From: Methanobacteriota archaeon
Lineage (GTDB): Archaea; Thermoplasmatota; Thermoplasmata; Thermoplasmatales; Aciduliprofundaceae
DNA length: 41,569 nt
Direction: 5' to 3'
Assembly (NCBI GenBank): GCA_013154005.1
Contig: JAADDK010000029.1
Span: 1 to 41,569, forward strand
The translations under genes and the position numbers were made by a program. How positions within the stretch are numbered: the first letter of the stretch is position 1; each line of letters begins with the position of its first letter. This document shows, piece after piece, positions 1-13,720 of this stretch. The notes under the pieces were generated by a model that searched no databases, had not been told where the DNA came from, and saw only the letters and a list, made by a program, of their open reading frames with translations.

Positions 1-699
1 TTTGCAGATATGGCCGCATATGCAGGCAGACAGTATGGCTGGGAGACCAGCGGAATATCTGGATTCGGATTCATTAATCCAACAATATACCAGCTGGGAT
101 ACGACTACTACGTAAACGGGCAGTATTCCTCAGCACCTCCATTCTACGATATAACCCAGGTATATCCGTACTCATACCCTGCTGCACCAAAGGTTGGTTA
201 CGACATGCCCACAGGCTGGGGCGTAATTAATGCATGGAACTTCATACACGACATAGGATTCAGAATAACCGCGGTGAACTATACTGTGACCGTTGCGCCG
301 GGTGGCACCGGAGATTACTACCTGAAAGTATGGTATCCGTATGGCTGGTCCACAACAGTGGGCAACTTTGAGGTGCACAGTCTTCCCACAGGAGCAACTG
401 CCACATTTAACACCACGTCCGTAAATGCGGGAGCATGGGAAAATAATACCACCGCACCATCAAACCTGGAACTTTCAATAACCGTACCCACCACACTGGC
501 AGCGGGTACATACGTGATATATGTTACCGGAAATACGTACAACGCCACAACGGGCCAGTACGGAAATCTCACATACAACATAACATTGACCCTTGTGGTA
601 AGCAGTGCGGTTCCAGAGTTTCATTCACCGGCAGTGATAGTTTCAGGGATACTGATAATCACACTGATTGCAATAGATAGAAGAAAAAGAAAACTCTAA
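1..699 (+). CDS. Sedolisin-type (S53) secreted protease, C-terminal part (5' end outside window)
   Basis: The reading frame is open from base 1, so only the last 232 residues are present and the catalytic Glu/Asp/Ser centre is not visible. The visible part aligns end to end with the C-terminus of the complete sedolisin at 11249-13720. Shared blocks include AAYAGR, PTIY.LG, the Asp-Ile-Thr and GWGVI.AWNFIHDIG segments that in S53 enzymes form the calcium site, and a roughly 110-residue Ig-like beta domain. It ends with VPEF, a hydrophobic helix and RRKRK, a tail that should hold the protein at the cell surface. S53 enzymes are endopeptidases active at acid pH, so a role in extracellular peptide use is inferred. 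It is a paralogue, not a copy: identity is clear but far from complete. Confidence 0.88.
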   Translation, partial: FADMAAYAGRQYGWETSGISGFGFINPTIYQLGYDYYVNGQYSSAPPFYDITQVYPYSYPAAPKVGYDMPTGWGVINAWNFIHDIGFRITAVNYTVTVAPGGTGDYYLKVWYPYGWSTTVGNFEVHSLPTGATATFNTTSVNAGAWENNTTAPSNLELSITVPTTLAAGTYVIYVTGNTYNATTGQYGNLTYNITLTLVVSSAVPEFHSPAVIVSGILIITLIAIDRRKRKL

Positions 700-1277: not shown

Positions 1278-2708
1278 ATGATGGGGAGATGCAATATTGG
1301 CGTGTTGCTCCTTGCAATGCTCCTTATTTTTTCGGCCATGGGGGCGTTCGCGTCGGGAGCGGAGTGGAAAAACACAGCAACGAGAGGTTACACATCTCAC
1401 AGTGTGATAAGAATAAATGGAGACTCTGAATTTACCGCTGCAAACGGTGTAGTGAGCGGCTCGGGTACCGCCAGTGATCCGTATGTGATTTCCGGGTGGA
1501 TAATTGATGCGGGTACCAATGGTGCTGGAATTTTTATAGGCAATACCACCGCGTACTTTGTGGTGCAAAATAATTATGTGTATAACAGCACGAGAATATC
1601 ACTGCCGTATCAGGCAGGAGCAAGCATTATCGTGTACAATGCCACCCACGGCATGGTGCGGTACAATGAGGTGTATGCCAGCGATTATGGCATATTCATC
1701 TACCAAAACTCTCGCTACATAGACGTGGAATACAACAACGTGACGGGAAGCACATATTTCGGAGTATGGATATCTTTCTCGAACAATATCAATGTGACAT
1801 TCAACAACGCCAGCGATAACAGAGGAAGCACCTCCACCGCGGGCATCGACGTTTACGGGTCTTATAATGTGAGCGTTGAGTACAACACCTGCATTAACAA
1901 CACTTACGGAATTTACATGGGAGGTCCGAGCCATGACAACACTCTCAAATTCAACAACTGCTCATTTAACGGGAATTACGGAATATACATGTCCGGCTCG
2001 TCAACGAGCGTCGCAAACAATAATACTTTGATTTACGGAAACGATATTTACGGCAATCAGTACGGTATAAGACTGGCGTATTCGGAAAATGTGAGCATAC
2101 GCAGAAACATTGTCTCAGGGAACCTGTACGAGGGTATATACCTGTATTCTGGATCTTCGTACAACACCATATGGGAAAATACCGTTCTCCACAATGACCG
2201 AAACGGTGTCTATCTGTACGCGTATTCAACCACCACCCCGAGCGACCACAACATAGTGATGTGGAACAACATATCCGAGAATGCGGGAGCAGGGCTATAT
2301 GTATATACTTCCTCATACAACAGCATACACAACAATATGTTTTACAACAACACGGGATATGGCGTGGAACTCATCTCCGGAGCAAATTACAATGTTATTT
2401 ACGAGAATTCCTTCTACTTCAATCACGGCTCAAACGATACATACAATTCCTCGAATGTGCAGGCTTATGATGCCGGCACCGGAAATCAGTGGAACATATC
2501 CTACGAGGGCAATTACTGGCACGACTGGACCACGCCCGACGCAAACGGAGACGGCATAGTGGATAACCCGTATGCAATAGACGGCACGGCAAACTCCGAA
2601 GATAAGCTTCCGCTTGTGCACCGCACCGCAGTGCCGGAGCTCTCACCCGCCATCGTGCTTATTGCCATATTAGCGGGCATGCTCGTGCTGTGGAGAAGAA
2701 ACCACTAA
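1278..2708 (+). CDS. Secreted NosD-like right-handed beta-helix protein with C-terminal anchor
   Basis: 476 residues. A signal peptide is visible at 1-27 (hydrophobic VLLLAMLLIFSAMGAFA). From about residue 70 to 400 there are short repeated strands rich in Asn, Tyr and Gly (for example NNTLIYGN, YNSIHNN), the PbH1 pattern of pectate-lyase/NosD beta-helices. The end of the helix carries GNYWHDW followed by DANGDGIVD, an EF-hand-like calcium loop usual for this archaeal family. The tail is VPEL, a hydrophobic helix and RRN, as in the sedolisins. A surface carbohydrate-binding or S-layer-associated role is plausible, but no enzymatic activity can be assigned. The start is fixed by AGGAGG. Its last 39 bases overlap the end of truA on the other strand. 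Confidence 0.85.
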   Translation: MMGRCNIGVLLLAMLLIFSAMGAFASGAEWKNTATRGYTSHSVIRINGDSEFTAANGVVSGSGTASDPYVISGWIIDAGTNGAGIFIGNTTAYFVVQNNYVYNSTRISLPYQAGASIIVYNATHGMVRYNEVYASDYGIFIYQNSRYIDVEYNNVTGSTYFGVWISFSNNINVTFNNASDNRGSTSTAGIDVYGSYNVSVEYNTCINNTYGIYMGGPSHDNTLKFNNCSFNGNYGIYMSGSSTSVANNNTLIYGNDIYGNQYGIRLAYSENVSIRRNIVSGNLYEGIYLYSGSSYNTIWENTVLHNDRNGVYLYAYSTTTPSDHNIVMWNNISENAGAGLYVYTSSYNSIHNNMFYNNTGYGVELISGANYNVIYENSFYFNHGSNDTYNSSNVQAYDAGTGNQWNISYEGNYWHDWTTPDANGDGIVDNPYAIDGTANSEDKLPLVHRTAVPELSPAIVLIAILAGMLVLWRRNH

Positions 2709-3449
2709 ACCTCTCCATTTTTTTTGCAATGCATAAAGATAATAATACACCAGATTCTCCGAAAACCTATTGAACGCTTTTTCGGGCAATCCTTTCCAGC
2801 GCATAGGGATAAAAGAGAAATCGTACTGCACGTCCATGAGAATGAGCGGCTCCGGTGGCGCGAGCCCGAAATTCCTTCGCTCGTTGAAAATCTCCTCATC
2901 AAATCTATGGCCTGAGGCGTAGGCGGTAATGGCGGCCACGATTCTTCGTATGAGGTTCCAGAGATAGTACCGTGCACGAAAATCTATAACGAAAAAATCA
3001 CAGTGTCTGCTTATTTCGATGCTATCAATTCTCAGCACCGTGTTTTCGCGCGCACGGGTGAAATTCCTGAAATCGTGCTCGCCCAGAAATATCGCAGCGG
3101 CTTCTTGCAGCTCCGAAATTGAGTATCCAAAATCGGGAAGATGGTAGCGGTACCATCTTTGCCTCGCAAATCGAGGATTTGTATCTTCATCACTGTACCC
3201 GTGAAAGAAAATATGGCGAAGGTTGGAGTTCAAAATTCCGATAACCTTATCCGGCGATGCATCTGTGGCGAGGTAAATGACATTGCCGAGCGCGCTCACT
3301 CCGCGGTCAGTGCGCGATGCGCTTTTTATTTCGCCAGCAATTTTGTACTCTCTCAAAACTCGCAGTATCTCTCCTTCAACCGTGGGCACACCGGGCTGGC
3401 GCTGGTACCCGTAAAATCTGGTGCCGTCGTAGGCGAATTTCAGAAGCAC
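2670..3449 (-). CDS. truA: tRNA pseudouridine synthase A
   Basis: 259 residues. TruA converts uridines 38-40 of the tRNA anticodon arm to pseudouridine. The family signature is clear: LKFAYDGTRFYGYQRQP at the N-terminus and SRTDRGVSALGN around residue 45-56, in which Asp48 is the catalytic nucleophile. GEHDFRNFTR and RYYLWNLIRRIV are the later conserved motifs. The start is GTG, one base after the TAG of the upstream RAM gene, so the two are almost certainly translated from one message. The C-terminal ~13 codons overlap the beta-helix gene tail to tail, and the last residues (SSPQHEHAR) are not family-like, suggesting stop-codon drift into the neighbour. Confidence 0.95.
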   Translation of the reverse strand: MLLKFAYDGTRFYGYQRQPGVPTVEGEILRVLREYKIAGEIKSASRTDRGVSALGNVIYLATDASPDKVIGILNSNLRHIFFHGYSDEDTNPRFARQRWYRYHLPDFGYSISELQEAAAIFLGEHDFRNFTRARENTVLRIDSIEISRHCDFFVIDFRARYYLWNLIRRIVAAITAYASGHRFDEEIFNERRNFGLAPPEPLILMDVQYDFSFIPMRWKGLPEKAFNRFSENLVYYYLYALQKKWRGLVVSSPQHEHAR

Positions 3450-3450
3450 A

Positions 3451-3693
3451 CTACGCCTCCAGATTCACAACCGTGAGCGTTTTTGTAGCCACTATGCCCG
3501 GTATTTTGCGGAGTTGCAGGACTATCCGTGGTATCTCCGTGGGCGAACCGGCAGATATCTTCGCAAGAATGTCATATTCACCATTCACCCCGTACGCTTC
3601 CACCACACCTTCATGAGCGACTACCTTACGGTAAACGTCTTCCACCCCATCTTTTTTACATTTAATCAGAACGTAACCCAGACCGGAACTCAT
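3451..3693 (-). CDS. Stand-alone Lrp/AsnC-type ligand-binding (RAM) domain protein
   Basis: 80 residues that match only the C-terminal RAM (ACT-like) half of Lrp/AsnC regulators: GYVLIKC, VVEAYGVNGEYDILAKI and the closing IPGIVATKTLTVVN. There is no helix-turn-helix. Such stand-alone domains form dimers or octamers and bind amino acids or small effectors, and may co-assemble with full-length Lrp proteins. AAGGTG lies seven bases before the ATG. It is followed after one base by truA, implying co-expression. A functional tie to tRNA modification is not evident. Confidence 0.85.
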   Translation of the reverse strand: MSSGLGYVLIKCKKDGVEDVYRKVVAHEGVVEAYGVNGEYDILAKISAGSPTEIPRIVLQLRKIPGIVATKTLTVVNLEA

Positions 3694-3770: not shown

Positions 3771-4544
3771 TCACCACCCCAGCACCGTGGCCTTTATTTG
3801 CTCTCCGTACTCACCCGTGCGGTAAAGCTCCCAGTGCTCAAAATCATAATCACGCAAAACGAGCTCCACATCCTCATGCTCAACATCTCCGCTCACGAGC
3901 ACCGCGCGGTTCGTGCCAAATAACCACGGTGAGTCCAGCGCGTCTTCGATGGCAAGGCGAATGCGCTCTTTGCCGACCCCGAACCCCACGCCAACGCCAA
4001 CTCGCCCGACAGGCATGTAATTGCGCGGAATAAGCATTCGCTCAAAATCCTGAACAAGATGCCGGAGCACGATGGGGTGTATGTTCATGGCATCATTTAT
4101 CGCCAGATTGGGATAGTAGTCCGCAATCTTCGCATTGGACATGGGAATTACCGCGCTATAATTTTTAAGCATTCTCTCCAGCGCATCCCTAGACCTCTGC
4201 ACCCTTGACGGCGATTCTCCGGAAAACGGCTCTGTGAACATACCGATAACCGTTCTGCGCGATGAAAACGCGCGTCCCACCAGCTCGGCCACGCCCGTGC
4301 CCACCACCCCGCCGAGACCGGCAATCACAAGAATCACCTCTGAATCTATCGCCTCGACCCAAGGGAAAACCTCCACCAGCATTCTGGCGCTGAGATTGGG
4401 CACCATGGCTAACTTATTGGGATTTACCACTATATCCGCTCCGGCACGGTCTATGCTCACGAATTTGCTGCGGCTGAACTGAGCCACAAACCTGCCAAAA
4501 CGCACGCCTGCGCCGCCACAGCCCAGAATCACGCTGGAATACAC
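3771..4544 (-). CDS. Short divergent FtsZ/tubulin-superfamily GTPase
   Basis: 257 residues against about 350-390 for FtsZ. The N-terminus has GCGGAGVRFG (residues 8-17), like the first glycine loop of FtsZ. The tubulin signature appears as IAGLGGVVGTGVAELV (residues 74-89; FtsZ has GGGTGTG). There follows a MFTEPF strand and a long RVQRSRDALERML helix ending in VIPMSNAKI, which parallels FtsZ. A second, smaller domain follows (GVGVGFG, then AIEDALDSPWLFG), similar in plan to the FtsZ C-terminal domain. I cannot find the NxDxxD T7 loop that triggers GTP hydrolysis in the next subunit. It may therefore bind nucleotide without forming ordinary hydrolysing filaments. The start is GTG, with a TATA-like CTTTAAA centred 26 bp upstream. 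Membership in the superfamily is likely; the function is unknown. Confidence 0.72.
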   Translation of the reverse strand: MYSSVILGCGGAGVRFGRFVAQFSRSKFVSIDRAGADIVVNPNKLAMVPNLSARMLVEVFPWVEAIDSEVILVIAGLGGVVGTGVAELVGRAFSSRRTVIGMFTEPFSGESPSRVQRSRDALERMLKNYSAVIPMSNAKIADYYPNLAINDAMNIHPIVLRHLVQDFERMLIPRNYMPVGRVGVGVGFGVGKERIRLAIEDALDSPWLFGTNRAVLVSGDVEHEDVELVLRDYDFEHWELYRTGEYGEQIKATVLGW

Positions 4545-4619
4545 GCCCGATTATGTTTTTCACACAATTTAAAGTTTTCTGAGTGAAACATTTTTACCTG
4601 TGCACGCATATTGGAAATT

Positions 4620-5840
4620 ATGATTAAAAAAGCAGTGCTCATAATATTGGACGGCGTGGGAGACCGTCCGGCAAATGAGCTGGAGGGAAAAACGCCGCTG
4701 CAGTACGCAAACACGCCCAACCTGGATAAAATTGCAAAGAAAAGCACCACCGGATTGATGGACCCCATTGCCCCCGGCATAAGAGCGGGAAGCGATACCT
4801 CGCACATGAACATTTTAGGCTATGACCCGTACAAGCATTATTCCGGGCGTGGACCCTTCGAAGCCGCGGGCCTGGATATGGAGCTTGAGCCGGGGGATAT
4901 CGCGTTCAGATGCAACTTCGCCACAGTGGACGAGAATATGGTTGTGAAAGACCGCAGAGCTGGAAGAATAAAAGAGGGCACGCACGAGCTTGCATCCGCG
5001 CTGAACGGAATGCAGATAGAGGACGTGCAGATTTTCGTAAAAGAGGGGGTGGAGCATCGTGCCGCGCTGGTGCTTCGTGGTCCCGGGCTGAGCCCGCACG
5101 TGAGCGATGCAGACCCGCACGAAACGGGCAAAAAGGTGCAGGAAGTGGTGGCTCTGGAGCCGGGAGCAGAGAAGACCGCAAGGATACTCAACGAATTTGT
5201 GAGAAGGTCCTACGATATACTCAGCACCCATGAAATAAACAGAGAAAGAGAAGCGCAAGGTAAACTGCCCGCGAATATACTGCTTCCGCGGGGTGCGGGC
5301 ATGGCGCCGCATCTGAAAAAATTTGAAGCGCTTCACGAGATGCGCGGTGCGTGCGTGGTGGGCACTCCTTTAATTCGCGGGATATGCAAGATGGCGGGCA
5401 TTACACCCATCGACGTGCCCGGAGCCACCGGCGGCTACGATACGGATATGATGGCGAAGATGCGGGCAGTGTTAGACGCCCTGCAGGAATTCGATTTTGT
5501 GCTGGTGAACATAAAGGCACCGGATATTGCAGGGCACGATTCCCGGCCGCGCAAGAAGGTGGAGGTGATAGAGAGAATAGACCGGGCTGTGGGATATCTC
5601 TTTGAACATCTACCCGACGATGTGGTTGTGGTGATAACCGCTGATCATTCAACACCCTGCAGCGTGGGAGACCACAGCGGAGACCCTGTGCCCGTCATGC
5701 TATACGCACCTGATGCACGCGCAGATGAGGGCGGCTTCGACGAAATTTCTGCGGCCCGGGGCGCGCTGCGCATACGCGGCTCTGACCTGATGAATATCAT
5801 AAAGAATGCGAGCAATCGCGCCCATAAGTTCGGCGCGTAA
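4620..5840 (+). CDS. apgM: Cofactor-independent (2,3-BPG-independent) archaeal phosphoglycerate mutase
   Basis: Interconverts 3- and 2-phosphoglycerate in glycolysis and gluconeogenesis. It belongs to the archaeal branch of the alkaline phosphatase superfamily. Visible motifs are LDGVGDRP near the N-terminus (metal-binding Asp), AGSDTSHMNILGYDP (catalytic Ser region), DIAGHD and ITADHSTPC.VGDHSGDP (second metal set). At 406 residues it has the normal length. I prefer the ATG at 4620 (MIKKAVLIILDG) over an in-frame TTG at 4611, because family members start directly at this strand. It diverges from the FtsZ-like gene across a 75-base gap, and a weak T-rich TATA-like stretch lies about 27 bp before the ATG. 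Confidence 0.95.
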   Translation: MIKKAVLIILDGVGDRPANELEGKTPLQYANTPNLDKIAKKSTTGLMDPIAPGIRAGSDTSHMNILGYDPYKHYSGRGPFEAAGLDMELEPGDIAFRCNFATVDENMVVKDRRAGRIKEGTHELASALNGMQIEDVQIFVKEGVEHRAALVLRGPGLSPHVSDADPHETGKKVQEVVALEPGAEKTARILNEFVRRSYDILSTHEINREREAQGKLPANILLPRGAGMAPHLKKFEALHEMRGACVVGTPLIRGICKMAGITPIDVPGATGGYDTDMMAKMRAVLDALQEFDFVLVNIKAPDIAGHDSRPRKKVEVIERIDRAVGYLFEHLPDDVVVVITADHSTPCSVGDHSGDPVPVMLYAPDARADEGGFDEISAARGALRIRGSDLMNIIKNASNRAHKFGA

Positions 5841-5911: not shown

Positions 5912-6733
5912 ATGAGAATCCCAACCTCGGTGGCAGCATTTGATACCATTGTGAAGGGGGGCATACCTTCTGGCTCCGTAATAATACTGGCGGGCGAGCC
6001 CGGCTCCGGATACCGCGAGTTTTCGTTTACCTCTGCGGCAAAGCTGGCCATGGCGCGCAACAGCGAAGAGTTTCGCCGCATTATGATTGAAGAGGCGGAG
6101 GATATTTACATTCCAAAGGGCACTGCGTACATATCGTTTTCGCGCAGTGAGAAAGAAGTGATGCGCTCTGTGGACCTGTCATTCAATCCTGACCTGGCAA
6201 AGGCGTTTCGCGATAATCTGGTGTTTAAAGATTTCTCTGTTGAGTTTTTCAAGCACAGCATTGTGCCGCCCAAATGGGTGGTGAGCAGCAGCATCAGCGA
6301 ATACATGAAAAAGAAGGGAGACCTGCTCAAAGAGTTTGTGAGTTTTATGGACGCGCATTCGAACGAGCGGGTTGTCATCGTTGACTCGCTCACCGACCTG
6401 CTCACCAGTCCCCGAATAAACACCACGGACCTGATTGACGTGATTCGCGGGCTGCGCAGAAAAGCCAAAGAATGGGATACTGTGATATACCTGCTTCTCA
6501 CTCTCGGCGTGCTCGAACCCCGTGAGGAGAGCATTCTGTTCGATTCCGTGGACGGAGTTATGGTGTTCCAGTGGCACACTTCCACCCGGTACTCAAAGCG
6601 ATACCGATACATGTACGTGCTCAAGTTTGTGGGACTGATGGCGAATTTAGAAGAAGAACGCATTGCGCGGTTTAACACAACCTTAAATAAGAGAAACGGT
6701 TTTGTCGTGGTGAACACGGAGAAGATTGGGTGA
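5912..6733 (+). CDS. KaiC/RecA-like protein with a degenerate Walker A (probable inactive ATPase)
   Basis: 273 residues with the layout of the archaeal KaiC-like family. It opens with IPTSVAAFDTIVKGGIPSGS, then a hydrophobic strand, then the P-loop position, which reads GEPGSGYREF (residues 28-37). Tyr34 replaces the invariant lysine and Arg35 the Thr/Ser, so normal ATP hydrolysis is unlikely. The Walker B strand RVVIVDSLTDLL is kept. It is first in an operon; its TGA overlaps a GTG inside the Shine-Dalgarno of the next gene, which encodes an intact KaiC-like ATPase. A pseudo-ATPase partner role in a hetero-oligomer is my inference. Family members are variously linked to signalling and motility (ArlH), but no archaellum gene is nearby. 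Confidence 0.78.
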   Translation: MRIPTSVAAFDTIVKGGIPSGSVIILAGEPGSGYREFSFTSAAKLAMARNSEEFRRIMIEEAEDIYIPKGTAYISFSRSEKEVMRSVDLSFNPDLAKAFRDNLVFKDFSVEFFKHSIVPPKWVVSSSISEYMKKKGDLLKEFVSFMDAHSNERVVIVDSLTDLLTSPRINTTDLIDVIRGLRRKAKEWDTVIYLLLTLGVLEPREESILFDSVDGVMVFQWHTSTRYSKRYRYMYVLKFVGLMANLEEERIARFNTTLNKRNGFVVVNTEKIG

Positions 6734-6738
6734 TTAAA

Positions 6739-7422
6739 ATGAGGGTTAGCACGGGCATTGAAGGACTGGACGATATGATTGATGGTGGATTCCCGGAAGG
6801 GCACAGTGTGGCTGTTATTGGCTCATTCGGCACGGGAAAGACCACCTTCGCTATGCAGTTTATATGGGAGGGTTTGCAGCGCGGCGAAAAATGCATATTT
6901 TTGAGTTTAGAAGAAGATGAAGATAGCATCGTGGAGACGGCGCGCACGTTCGGCTGGGATTTTGAAAGTTATTTAGATGAAAAGCTGCTTATCATCAAAC
7001 TTGAACCTGAGGACGCGGGTACAAGCATAAAACGCCTTGAGGGCGAGATTCCGGAGATGATTCGCGAGTTTGAAGCAAAGCGCATCGCCATCGACTCGGT
7101 GAGCCTCATTACCATGATGTTTCGCACCGAAGAAGACCGGAGAAAATACCTGTTCACGCTGAGCAAGAGCATAAAAGAAAGCGGTGCCACCGCACTTTAC
7201 ACTGCTGAGATAGACCCTCACAATCCCCAGGGCAGCAGAGACGGGCTCGTGGAATACGTGGTGGACGGTGTAATACTTCTCACCCTTGTAGAGTACAACA
7301 ATGCCATGCGCCCCATTCTGCGCGTGCTGAAAATGCGACGCACTCGCCATTCAAGAGAAGTCAAACCATACGAAATAACCGAACACGGGCTTGTGGTGAT
7401 GTCTGAATCGGCCATGCTGTGA
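6739..7422 (+). CDS. KaiC-like RecA-superfamily ATPase
   Basis: 228 residues, one RecA-type domain. It has MRVSTGIEGLDDMIDGGFPEG, the standard opening of KaiC-like proteins. Walker A is GSFGTGKTTF (Lys34, Thr35), FLSLEEDED is the catalytic-carboxylate strand, and RIAIDSVSLI is the Walker B strand. It has a single domain, unlike the double-domain KaiC clock protein. GGTGAT six bases before the ATG at 6739 decides this start over the in-frame GTG at 6730 that lies within that same site. It is translationally coupled to the degenerate paralogue upstream and followed by two small genes at short spacing. A regulatory ATPase rather than a repair enzyme is likely; the partner and signal are unknown. 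Confidence 0.88.
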   Translation: MRVSTGIEGLDDMIDGGFPEGHSVAVIGSFGTGKTTFAMQFIWEGLQRGEKCIFLSLEEDEDSIVETARTFGWDFESYLDEKLLIIKLEPEDAGTSIKRLEGEIPEMIREFEAKRIAIDSVSLITMMFRTEEDRRKYLFTLSKSIKESGATALYTAEIDPHNPQGSRDGLVEYVVDGVILLTLVEYNNAMRPILRVLKMRRTRHSREVKPYEITEHGLVVMSESAML

Positions 7423-9986: not shown

Positions 9987-10256
9987 TTAGAGGTACTTAA
10001 TTTTTCCAGATGGCCTGAACGTGAACTTCTTCTTCTCAGGCACATGGATTATTGCCTTGGTTCTGGGATTTCTTGCCTTTCTTGCCTTCTGCACTCTGCG
10101 CTCGAAGATTCCAAAGCCGACGAGGTTTACCTTATTTCCCTTGTTTACCTCATCAACGACTTCCTCAACGAACGCCTTTATCACTGCTTTTGCCTGCTTC
10201 TGGCTCACACCAGCTTTTTTCGCCACATTTTTTGCTATTTCACTAATTCCTACCAT
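9987..10256 (-). CDS. HU-family DNA-binding protein (bacterial-type archaeal chromatin protein)
   Basis: 89 residues, typical HU length. It has the N-terminal two-helix part (AKKAGVSQKQAKAVIKAF), the saddle strand VNLVGFGIFERR, and the arm with RKARNPRTKAII.VPEKKKFTFRPSGKIK, in which the conserved Arg-Asn-Pro inserts between bases. Thermoplasmata lack eukaryote-like histones and use such a protein (HTa in Thermoplasma) to compact DNA. It is a single gene with a strong promoter and a GGGGTGA ribosome site seven bases before the ATG. Confidence 0.95.
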   Translation of the reverse strand: MVGISEIAKNVAKKAGVSQKQAKAVIKAFVEEVVDEVNKGNKVNLVGFGIFERRVQKARKARNPRTKAIIHVPEKKKFTFRPSGKIKYL

Positions 10257-10956: not shown

Positions 10957-11248
10957 CATCAGCACCTAAATGCCTCACAGATATATATGTTTTTCCACAA
11001 TCCGCACCATCATACATCCAACAGATGCTGAGCGTTTGCGCATAATGAGCACATAAATTTAACATGCCAGCGATTTGTTTCCTCATACTCATGCAAACAA
11101 AACTCATCCAAAAACAAATTTATAATTTATGTTTCTTTTAAAATTAGACATTATTAAATTTTAATATTGAGAACCTCCCAGCAAAAAACGGCGAAAATAA
11201 GCGAATACCTTAAATATGGGTAAATCAATGTAATATGCAGTGGTAATT

Positions 11249-13720
11249 ATGTCGAAAGAAAATCGATTATGGGTGGGAAGATATAGTTCAGAGAACCTTG
11301 TAGGGAGAGAAAGCTTTATAAATGGCACAAACAAACCGTACAGAAACTTTACAAGGAAAAAAGGACCCAAGGGCAGAAAAGGGCTCGTGATTCTTCTGGT
11401 GATTGGCTTTATGATGGCCTCGCTGGTGGTAATCACATACAAATCGCCGGATATAGCCCCGAACGGATTCATTCTGGGCGAACCAGTACCATATGAAAAA
11501 AGTTATTCGCCCTCGCTAATTGCACATCACACGTTTCTGGGATATGCGAAGAGTTCACAGAAAATAGGGCTTGTTATAGGATTCAAGTGGAGAAATTCCA
11601 CAGAACTCAATGTAACTCTCAGAGCCATTAACAACCCTAACTCTCCAATGTACAGACATTATCTCACATGGGAGGAGTTTAAAAAGAAATACGCCCCCAG
11701 CAAGGAAGTATATGATGCAATGGTAAACTGGCTTAAAGAAAAGGGTGTGCATATAGAGCACACATGGCCTTTGAGAAACGCCATATCCATAGTGGACACT
11801 GCCGGAAACATAGAAAAAGCATTTGGAACGAAGATTGGTGTGTATGAGGGAGATGGTGTGCACACTCGCAAGTACTTCTACAGTATTACGCAGCCCCTTA
11901 ATATACCCTCCAACGTCATACCCTATATAAGCGGCATAAGCGGCACAAATAATGCACCTAAATATCATCTGAACTTCCATACAAACTCCACAGGCTCAAG
12001 ATTTGTATTTGCTTCAGACCTGCAAAAGATGTATCACATACTTCAACTTTACAATAACTCTGCCACCGCGGCACCCACGAGCTCTCCTATTTTTGCAAAA
12101 GGACTCAGAATAGCCACAGTGCTGTGGGAAGGAAACACTGGTGGATGGAGCGCTTCAGAATCGCCACCTTTTGATCCAGCAAATGTGGAGCATTACTGGC
12201 AACATGTGATACCAAAATGGGAACAAAACGAGGGTGGAATGCCCACGGTGTGGGGCTACGGAACTGAATCCGACTGTGTGGCACCGGGAGCGGACACAGA
12301 CGAAACAGGAGCAAACGTGGAAAATGAGCTTGATCTGGAAATGGTTGGAGTTATGGCTCCAGGGATAGATGTGGTGTGCGTTTACTCAGACTCCTCGCAG
12401 ACCAATTTCCCATCTGACAACTACAACTACATACTCAACTACCTTGCCCACAACTCAACTCTGGTGGCAGTGAGCAACTCCTGGGGCGGTGGAGACACCT
12501 CCGTAGATACCACAACCATGAGCGATGTGCAGGCGCTTAACGCGCTCGGTGTCACGGTGCTCGCTTCCAGCGGTGATGATGGCGACACAACCACTCCTAG
12601 CGAACCGTCCACTGCAGCCCTGGATAACTATGGATTCATAGCGGTAGGTGGCACCACACCAACCCCAAATGGAATAGATGATTCTTCCACCAGCCTGGAT
12701 ACTGACTATTATCAAACAATGGGTAACAACACAAATCTAACTGACCCCAGAAGCAATGAGGTTGTATGGTATGATTCAAGATACACCAACAGCAACGGGG
12801 ATCATTATGGAACGCAGAGCGGAGTAAGCTCCACATACTCAGAGCCTTCCTGGCAGTCAACATACATAGGCACATATAACGGAAGAGTCACCGCAGATAT
12901 ATCTGCAGATGGAAATGCAACAATAATCTATTACACATACTATGATTCCAACTCAGGTACGTTCAGTACAGGATGGTATGGCATCGCAGGAACATCGGTT
13001 GCGTGTCCCGTAACTGCAGGTATGTTAGGTGCCATGGCTGCCTATGCAGGAAGGATGTACGACGGCCAGGGAACTGTAACCAGCGACAACACCATCTACG
13101 GATTCGGATTCTTTGCGCCCACCATATACAAACTCGGACACGACTATTACTCAAACGGTTTGTACTCCTCATCCCCACCGTTCTTTGACGTTACTCAGGG
13201 AAGCACTGCGGGCGGTGGCTCCGCCGCCGTGGGCTGGGATCAGGTATCTGGATGGGGCGTAATAGATGCATGGAATTTCATCCACGACATCGGCCCGTAT
13301 ATGAGCGCGCAGGTTTCTAATATAACGGTTACCGCAGGAAATTCTGGCAGTTACACAATAAGCATCTGGTTCCCGTATGACTGGACCAGCGAGATGGGAC
13401 ACTTCCAGGTGCTGGGATTGCCCGCTGGAGCATCATTTACAACCAATGTTACTTCCGTGCACCCACCCGGAGGTGGAGTGGCATCCCTCGTGAACTTTAC
13501 CATTTCCACCTCCACAACCACCCCGGCAGGCACATATTCTCTAACAATTGTGGCATATACATACAACAGCACCTCAAATCAATGGGGTAACCTATCAGCA
13601 AGCACCGTGGTAACATTAGTAGTGACCTCCGCAGTTCCAGAGATCTCAACAAATGCGCTTCTGCCATTGCTAATCATAACCACGGGTTTGATTGCAGTGT
13701 GGAGAAGAAGAACCTTATAA
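11249..13720 (+). CDS. Sedolisin/kumamolisin-type serine-carboxyl protease (S53), membrane-anchored precursor
   Basis: About 823 residues. Order: a basic cytoplasmic head of ~45 residues, a hydrophobic signal anchor (LVILLVIGFMMASLVVI), a pro-kumamolisin activation domain (HYLTWEEFKKKYAPS to about residue 245), and the protease domain. The catalytic Glu and Asp lie in VENELDLE, the oxyanion Asp in ASSGDDGD, and the Ser in GTSVACP. The calcium segment is DVTQG...GWD..SGWG. An Ig-like beta domain and a VPEI-helix-RRR tail follow. It should cleave proteins outside the cell at low pH. ATG 11249 is preferred; a GTG nine bases upstream is in frame. TTAAATA (near 11210) is the likely TATA box. A paralogue lies at 1-699. 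The last six bases overlap the next gene. Confidence 0.93.
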   Translation: MSKENRLWVGRYSSENLVGRESFINGTNKPYRNFTRKKGPKGRKGLVILLVIGFMMASLVVITYKSPDIAPNGFILGEPVPYEKSYSPSLIAHHTFLGYAKSSQKIGLVIGFKWRNSTELNVTLRAINNPNSPMYRHYLTWEEFKKKYAPSKEVYDAMVNWLKEKGVHIEHTWPLRNAISIVDTAGNIEKAFGTKIGVYEGDGVHTRKYFYSITQPLNIPSNVIPYISGISGTNNAPKYHLNFHTNSTGSRFVFASDLQKMYHILQLYNNSATAAPTSSPIFAKGLRIATVLWEGNTGGWSASESPPFDPANVEHYWQHVIPKWEQNEGGMPTVWGYGTESDCVAPGADTDETGANVENELDLEMVGVMAPGIDVVCVYSDSSQTNFPSDNYNYILNYLAHNSTLVAVSNSWGGGDTSVDTTTMSDVQALNALGVTVLASSGDDGDTTTPSEPSTAALDNYGFIAVGGTTPTPNGIDDSSTSLDTDYYQTMGNNTNLTDPRSNEVVWYDSRYTNSNGDHYGTQSGVSSTYSEPSWQSTYIGTYNGRVTADISADGNATIIYYTYYDSNSGTFSTGWYGIAGTSVACPVTAGMLGAMAAYAGRMYDGQGTVTSDNTIYGFGFFAPTIYKLGHDYYSNGLYSSSPPFFDVTQGSTAGGGSAAVGWDQVSGWGVIDAWNFIHDIGPYMSAQVSNITVTAGNSGSYTISIWFPYDWTSEMGHFQVLGLPAGASFTTNVTSVHPPGGGVASLVNFTISTSTTTPAGTYSLTIVAYTYNSTSNQWGNLSASTVVTLVVTSAVPEISTNALLPLLIITTGLIAVWRRRTL

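Follow-up and report, generated by a model that had tools for sequence, protein, structure and literature searches.

What does a protein of the FtsZ fold do when it lacks the loop with which FtsZ triggers hydrolysis in its neighbour? The question is raised by a short gene in a 41,569-nucleotide stretch of archaeal DNA, analysed here in full (the window). The GTPase site of FtsZ and tubulin needs the T7 loop of the next subunit, and a clade that lacks loops T3 and T7 but retains the nucleotide pocket amounts to a natural separation-of-function experiment, which would show what the fold does without driving its own turnover. The assignment of the host to Thermoplasmata, made in a preliminary description of the locus, is borne out by its relatives, which belong to the DHVE2/Aciduliprofundum group. 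The gene in question is the following:

3771..4544, minus strand: compact FtsZ-like protein of 257 amino acids; GTG start, uninterrupted frame, stop codon included

The preliminary description had given this interval and length correctly and omitted the strand; the plus strand of the same interval carries several stops. In a Pfam search, the window protein matched PF00091 with 40.2 bits against a cut-off of 33, which makes the open reading frame more than a chance one. PF00091 was matched by all 15 aligned orthologues too. The reading frame is real and encodes a genuine tubulin-superfamily protein. Conversely, the NCBIfam ftsZ equivalog TIGR00065 scored 42.2 bits, its cut-off being 295, and the 257 residues compare with 330-383 in the FtsZ paralogues of the order.

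An AlphaFold2 model built from 14 sequences (mean pLDDT 93.1, pTM 0.90) presents the elements in the order S1-H1-S2-(short region)-S4-H4-S5-H5-S6-H6-H7-S7-H9-S8-H10-S9-S10, named by analogy with FtsZ. FtsZ structures make up all of the best 50 matches listed by Foldseek against the PDB, with a TM-score over the query mostly between 0.70 and 0.82 and an outlier of 0.56 for the domain-swapped 1w5f, and profile-profile comparison with the FtsZ paralogues of the order aligned 254 columns at a probability of 99.7. The C-terminal domain stays folded in the model, which ends shortly after its last strand (250-256, chain end at 257); the protein thus has no C-terminal tail for SepF or other membrane anchors. 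The predicted fold is that of tubulin and FtsZ, as had been surmised: the model, Foldseek and PF00091 agree, and neither a different fold nor a better match to another Rossmann family was found by AlphaFold2 or Foldseek.

Residue equivalences were taken from an alignment of the window's GTDB family (family f1, 15 orthologues) with 18 FtsZ paralogues and Escherichia coli FtsZ, so that positions rest on alignment and not on recall. The losses fall at these sites:

4365..4409, minus strand: place of FtsZ loop T3 and helix H2 (residues 46-60); GAG motif absent, poorly conserved (entropy 1.9)
4002..4031, minus strand: deletion site of loop T7 and helix H8 (residues 172-181), between H7 (155-171) and S7 (183-189)

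The column of E. coli G71, in T3, is a gap in all 33 class-wide compact sequences (see below) and in all 15 of family f1. The reported lack of a T7 NxDxxD motif holds, since neither NxDxxD nor NxD occurs anywhere in the 257 residues, and a T7 hidden elsewhere in the protein is rejected on the same ground. Both hhalign and MAFFT place a gap at the T7 site, and H7 passes directly into S7 in the model, helix H8 being gone in family f1 as a whole; part of H10 is deleted across the family. The loss is therefore wider than the T7 loss first described, extending to T3, H8 and the C-terminal tail, and the absence of T3, T7 and the tail, together with the unreached TIGR00065 cut-off, upholds the statement that this is no canonical FtsZ. 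The sole NxDxx[DE] match in the family, NVDRED in L010, lies after strand S8 near H10, the wrong position for T7. The motif is present in 17 of the 18 full-length FtsZ paralogues; in the compact clade N207 and one aspartate are lost, the aspartate that remains in most of the proteins being D209 or D212, with ambiguous placement. In FtsZ, T7 enters the pocket of the neighbouring subunit and triggers hydrolysis (PMC8456036, PMC12583498). Judged from the aligned sequences, neither element of the composite GTPase site, T3 or T7, is present, and the window protein very probably neither hydrolyses nucleotide efficiently nor triggers hydrolysis in a partner. Because both are absent, a remodelling GTPase is now the least likely of the functions initially suggested.

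By contrast, much of the pocket is kept:

4506..4523, minus strand: T1 glycine loop GCGGAG (residues 8-13), which binds phosphate; the same in all 15 orthologues (entropy 0.0)
4293..4319, minus strand: modified T4 tubulin signature GLGGVVGTG (residues 76-84); FtsZ G107 and T108 replaced by V V
4203..4217, minus strand: E110 and R114, ribose side of the pocket, equivalent to E. coli FtsZ E138 and R142; unchanged throughout family f1 and the 33 class-wide compact sequences
4134..4136, minus strand: N137, T6 base contact, equivalent to E. coli FtsZ N165; invariant in family f1 and the compact sequences

Both the glycine loop and the modified signature had already been recognised in the preliminary description, and both are confirmed here. 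Within family f1, T1, P106, F107, E110, R114 and N137 show no exception, mean entropy being 0.0 for T1, for P106/F107/E110/R114 and for N137 against 1.32 over all positions. T4 is retained in modified form among the 15 orthologues without being invariant: where FtsZ has GGGTG[ST]G the family has GLGGxxG(T/S), and V, L or I mostly take the place of the threonine equivalent to E. coli T108. F182, N186 and D187 of FtsZ are not retained either. The replaced threonine and these three losses mean that affinity and base specificity may differ, and binding in family f1 may be weak or not guanine-specific; still, the conserved residues suggest that the window protein probably binds a nucleotide. Compared with canonical FtsZ (TIGR00065, PF00091 + PF12327), the protein thus shares the fold, T1, the tubulin signature region, the equivalents of E138, R142 and N165 and the glycine-rich S7-H9 segment, but lacks the T3 GAG, the T7 NxDxxD, H8 and the C-terminal tail and has a shortened H10.

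Fourteen other genomes of the GTDB family carry orthologues at 39-48% identity, with one further partial copy, and searching named records separately gave 13 loci, which belong to DHVE2-group, Aciduliprofundum and Thermoplasmata metagenome-assembled genomes; one orthologue lies in a single-contig genome (G011, 1,486,778 bases). A short protein without T7 and H8 might be a decaying or truncated ftsZ gene (a pseudogene, a frameshift or an assembly artefact), but this is extremely unlikely given the same architecture in 15 genomes, a dN/dS of 0.05-0.12 in the close orthologue pairs measured, the confident fold and the same T7-less state across many families. Conservation in 15 orthologues and selection rule that explanation out, and the substitution ratios point to a maintained gene under strong, long-term purifying selection.

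The compact gene is present as a single copy per genome, beside several FtsZ paralogues; the window's own genome carries five full-length FtsZ copies with T7 intact. Among the tubulin-superfamily genes of this genome are two divergent full-length FtsZ paralogues of 346 and 343 amino acids (L004:1438-2475 and L005:1426-2454), with T7 present and T3 altered, which form a branch of their own among FtsZs together with L035. A second short paralogue of 245 amino acids (L006:1318-2052, minus strand; G000:C122) consists of just the GTPase domain: the chain stops past the H7 region, and T7 and the C-terminal domain are missing. Thirteen of the 18 family genomes have an orthologue of it, and the search of the other relatives found none.

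The window protein is no one-off, a point missed in the preliminary description: it belongs to a clade of T7-less paralogues found across the class. A class-wide profile search, from which 40 loci were fetched, identified compact proteins of 266-311 amino acids in many Thermoplasmata families, and the clade of short FtsZ paralogues spans about a dozen families of the class, the window protein's family being its most reduced branch. In the class and phylum searches species were drawn from GTDB and scoring was limited to 6-9 candidates per genome. In the phylum search with the compact profile, the 42 best-scoring genomes (222 bits and above) were read as compact; below this lay longer FtsZ frames together with rare compact members (for example, G257:C7), and the sampled other classes of the phylum yielded FtsZ-like matches only. 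T7 was absent from every compact sequence checked. A maximum-likelihood tree (IQ-TREE) placed all 50 compact-type sequences on one side and all 19 FtsZs, including that of E. coli, on the other, the separating branch having a support of 100/99 and being recovered in all 200 bootstrap trees. Long branches (families f4, f9 and f1) make the branching order inside the clade untrustworthy. The clade also has a diagnostic motif:

3924..3932, minus strand: SPW motif (residues 205-207)

SPW occurs in 52 of the 54 class-wide compact sequences examined (one exception is a 219-amino-acid frame) and 15 of 15 in family f1, but in none of 18 full-length FtsZ paralogues and none of six controls, the sampled FtsZs having SPL, NPL, FPF and similar triplets. 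Twenty further loci comprised 14 compact proteins without T7, 13 of them with SPW, and six FtsZs with T7, none with SPW. The window protein fits the clade by the supported branch, the lack of T7 and its SPW. One other candidate, G020:C13 (258 amino acids), proved to be a canonical FtsZ truncated where its contig ends.

Genomes with a compact member have 4-9 tubulin-superfamily matches among the candidates scored, as opposed to 1-2 in most genomes without one. Pfam and NCBIfam recognise the compact proteins as generic Tubulin/FtsZ only, under the ftsZ equivalog cut-off, and PF00091-based counts of archaeal FtsZ accordingly include proteins unable to act as FtsZ. We found no description of the Thermoplasmata compact clade in the open-access literature searched, and an earlier account may exist elsewhere. 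A 2023 survey of the FtsZ/tubulin family covers FtsZ1/2, CetZ, artubulins and Tubulin_2 (PMC9871819), and a text search of it did not find the group; Makarova and Koonin had pointed to some archaeal FtsZ paralogues that are without functional motifs and whose roles are obscure (PMC2875224).

Other non-canonical FtsZ-like proteins are known to stand beside FtsZ, namely FtsZl1 (Tubulin_2, PF13809) and FtsZl2 (PMC2875224). In FtsZl1 the T6-H7 region is not identifiable and there is no similarity to known C-terminal domains; it has coiled-coil and helical extensions and lies in vWA/GTPase operons, and FtsZl2 keeps T7 and has a C-terminal region of about 300 amino acids (PMC2875224). The window protein, unlike FtsZl1, has a clear T6-H7, an FtsZ-type C-terminal domain at its end and no extensions. 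Neither it nor its aligned orthologues match PF13809 at E ≤ 1, and no vWA gene stands among the annotated neighbours in the window, so that membership in FtsZl1/Tubulin_2 is rejected. Haloarchaeal CetZ and TubZ share the tubulin-superfamily GTPase domain. A profile search of PDB sequences returned FtsZ at an E-value of 2e-19 as opposed to 0.003 and 0.04 for 4b45 and 4b46, which we take to be CetZ structures; this argues against a CetZ identity. No TubZ-labelled entry was matched in that search, and the absence of any match in 50,697 phage records or IMG/VR contigs led us to reject a TubZ identity or a phage TubZ-like origin. Profile searches thus favour FtsZ over the CetZ, TubZ and Tubulin_2 families.

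The neighbours of the gene in the window are as follows:

3451..3693, minus strand: Lrp/AsnC ligand-binding domain protein of 80 amino acids (PF01037), downstream; keeps its place after the FtsZ-like gene in six loci of the genus
2670..3449, minus strand: TruA-type tRNA pseudouridine synthase (PF01416), downstream; adjoins the AsnC gene in five loci
4611..5840, plus strand: archaeal-type phosphoglycerate mutase (PF10143 + PF01676), divergent upstream; adjacency not conserved in relatives

In Aciduliprofundum-like genera the gene instead lies between genes that read as a TrmI-like methyltransferase and an epimerase-like protein. As the AsnC/TruA context is confined to one genus and the TrmI-like/epimerase-like one to others, the family f1 neighbourhood gave no lead to a functional linkage. 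Across lineages the neighbours are housekeeping genes that differ from one lineage to the next, and in none of the loci examined was ftsZ or sepF recognised beside the compact gene. Another layout is seen in many Thermoplasmata, where herA or mre11-rad50 and the compact gene point away from each other and dphB/trm5-like genes often converge on the latter (loci with the herA/mre11-rad50 arrangement include L085, L087, L091, L095, L096, L098, L099, L100, L108 and L110). A role in DNA-end processing or translation rather than division could be read from this layout, with herA, mre11 or rad50 on the opposite strand within three genes 5' at 15 of the 39 compact loci, spread over several families, and, for families f1 and f9, from the proximity of tRNA-modification or NMD3 genes. 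We consider such a role very unlikely: the herA/mre11 layout is absent from the window's family and from family f4, divergent neighbours need not cooperate, and housekeeping blocks often persist passively.

Family f4 departs from the rest of the clade in the pocket itself. Its orthologues were detected in three genomes, two at profile E-values of about 1e-27 before inclusion and the third via the class-wide search:

L071:7907-8704 (minus strand), L072:3241-3993 (minus strand) and L081:3262-4071 (plus strand): family f4 orthologues; glycine loop and tubulin signature lost, other fold motifs kept

Specifically, T1 GCGGAG has become VIGDPA in two of the three and T4 is lost; the SPW region is retained, as is the H5 region in two, and the neighbourhood (DUF6015, the FtsZ-like gene and a universal stress protein) is conserved. 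If orthology holds, the loss of T1 and T4 means that nucleotide binding is dispensable there, and the function of the gene would outlast it.

How might such a protein act? We tentatively propose that it is a non-hydrolysing, nucleotide-binding FtsZ paralogue that probably caps or otherwise modulates full-length FtsZ. As a reduced paralogue without T3, which contacts the gamma-phosphate, and T7, which enters the neighbour's pocket, it would act, less surely, on the full-length FtsZ paralogues of the same genome. With its nucleotide (top) face kept, it could bind beneath an FtsZ subunit, against that subunit's T7/C-terminal face, and with its T7 (bottom) face removed it could not be extended on its other side; the docked protein would be a cap or length regulator of FtsZ filaments. 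The proposal is motivated by this geometry, by co-occurrence with multi-FtsZ genomes and by the precedents of MciZ and ARC3. ARC3, a protein of plant chloroplasts, carries an FtsZ-like domain and provides a precedent for regulation by an FtsZ-related protein, with no claim of homology; unlike the window protein, it is eukaryotic with a MORN-containing C-terminus. ARC3 inhibits FtsZ filament assembly (PMC5471200). MciZ of Bacillus subtilis, a 40-amino-acid peptide with no homology to the window protein, would be similar in its capping action: it binds H10 and strand S9 of FtsZ and caps filaments by occluding contacts of the C-terminal domain (PMC8456036). Against the proposal stand the lack of ftsZ adjacency in the loci examined, the lineage-specific housekeeping neighbours, family f4 without T1 and T4, and the altered pocket residues of family f1.

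In a different model the protein works by itself as a nucleotide sensor or switch: a domain of the FtsZ fold, monomeric or dimeric, would bind GTP, GDP or another nucleotide and signal to an unrelated partner, with no role in FtsZ filaments. A conserved pocket from which both polymer-activation elements are gone, the lack of linkage to ftsZ genes and the missing tail for membrane anchors are all consistent with it, but family f4 dropped the nucleotide motifs yet kept the gene, and the compact clade occurs mainly in FtsZ-paralogue-rich genomes; we regard a sensor as rather unlikely. Stable or mixed filaments, formed through a rebuilt bottom interface without T7-triggered turnover, appear less probable still. 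Conservation is high in the S7-H9-SPW region (entropy 0.64), which lies at the bottom of the protein, the C-terminal domain is folded in the model and T7-mutant FtsZs keep the FtsZ fold in solved structures (PDB 3wgk, 3wgl and 1w5f, among the Foldseek matches), but family f1 lacks H8 and part of H10, the helices that form the longitudinal contact.

Extended to the whole class, the capping proposal becomes somewhat less likely: the compact proteins would be FtsZ-fold pseudo-GTPases in which nucleotide binding was permanently split from filament turnover, and would serve an archaeal cytoskeleton of several FtsZs as its dedicated capping or regulatory subunit, with one lineage turned nucleotide-independent. 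The clade offers a testable candidate regulator of archaeal division in a class with up to nine tubulin-superfamily genes per genome.

Other genes of the window deserve mention. Tandem KaiC-like genes lie at 5912-7422 (plus strand), the first matching PF06745 with no more than its first 33 residues, the second along the full domain. A long putative secreted protein at 11240-13720 (plus strand) resembles, on reading its sequence, a sedolisin-type peptidase, and a fragment of a relative of it occupies the start of the window at 10-699 (plus strand). Bacterial HU-type DNA-binding proteins are known in Thermoplasmata, and an 89-amino-acid protein at 9987-10256 (minus strand) looks, by eye, like one of them.
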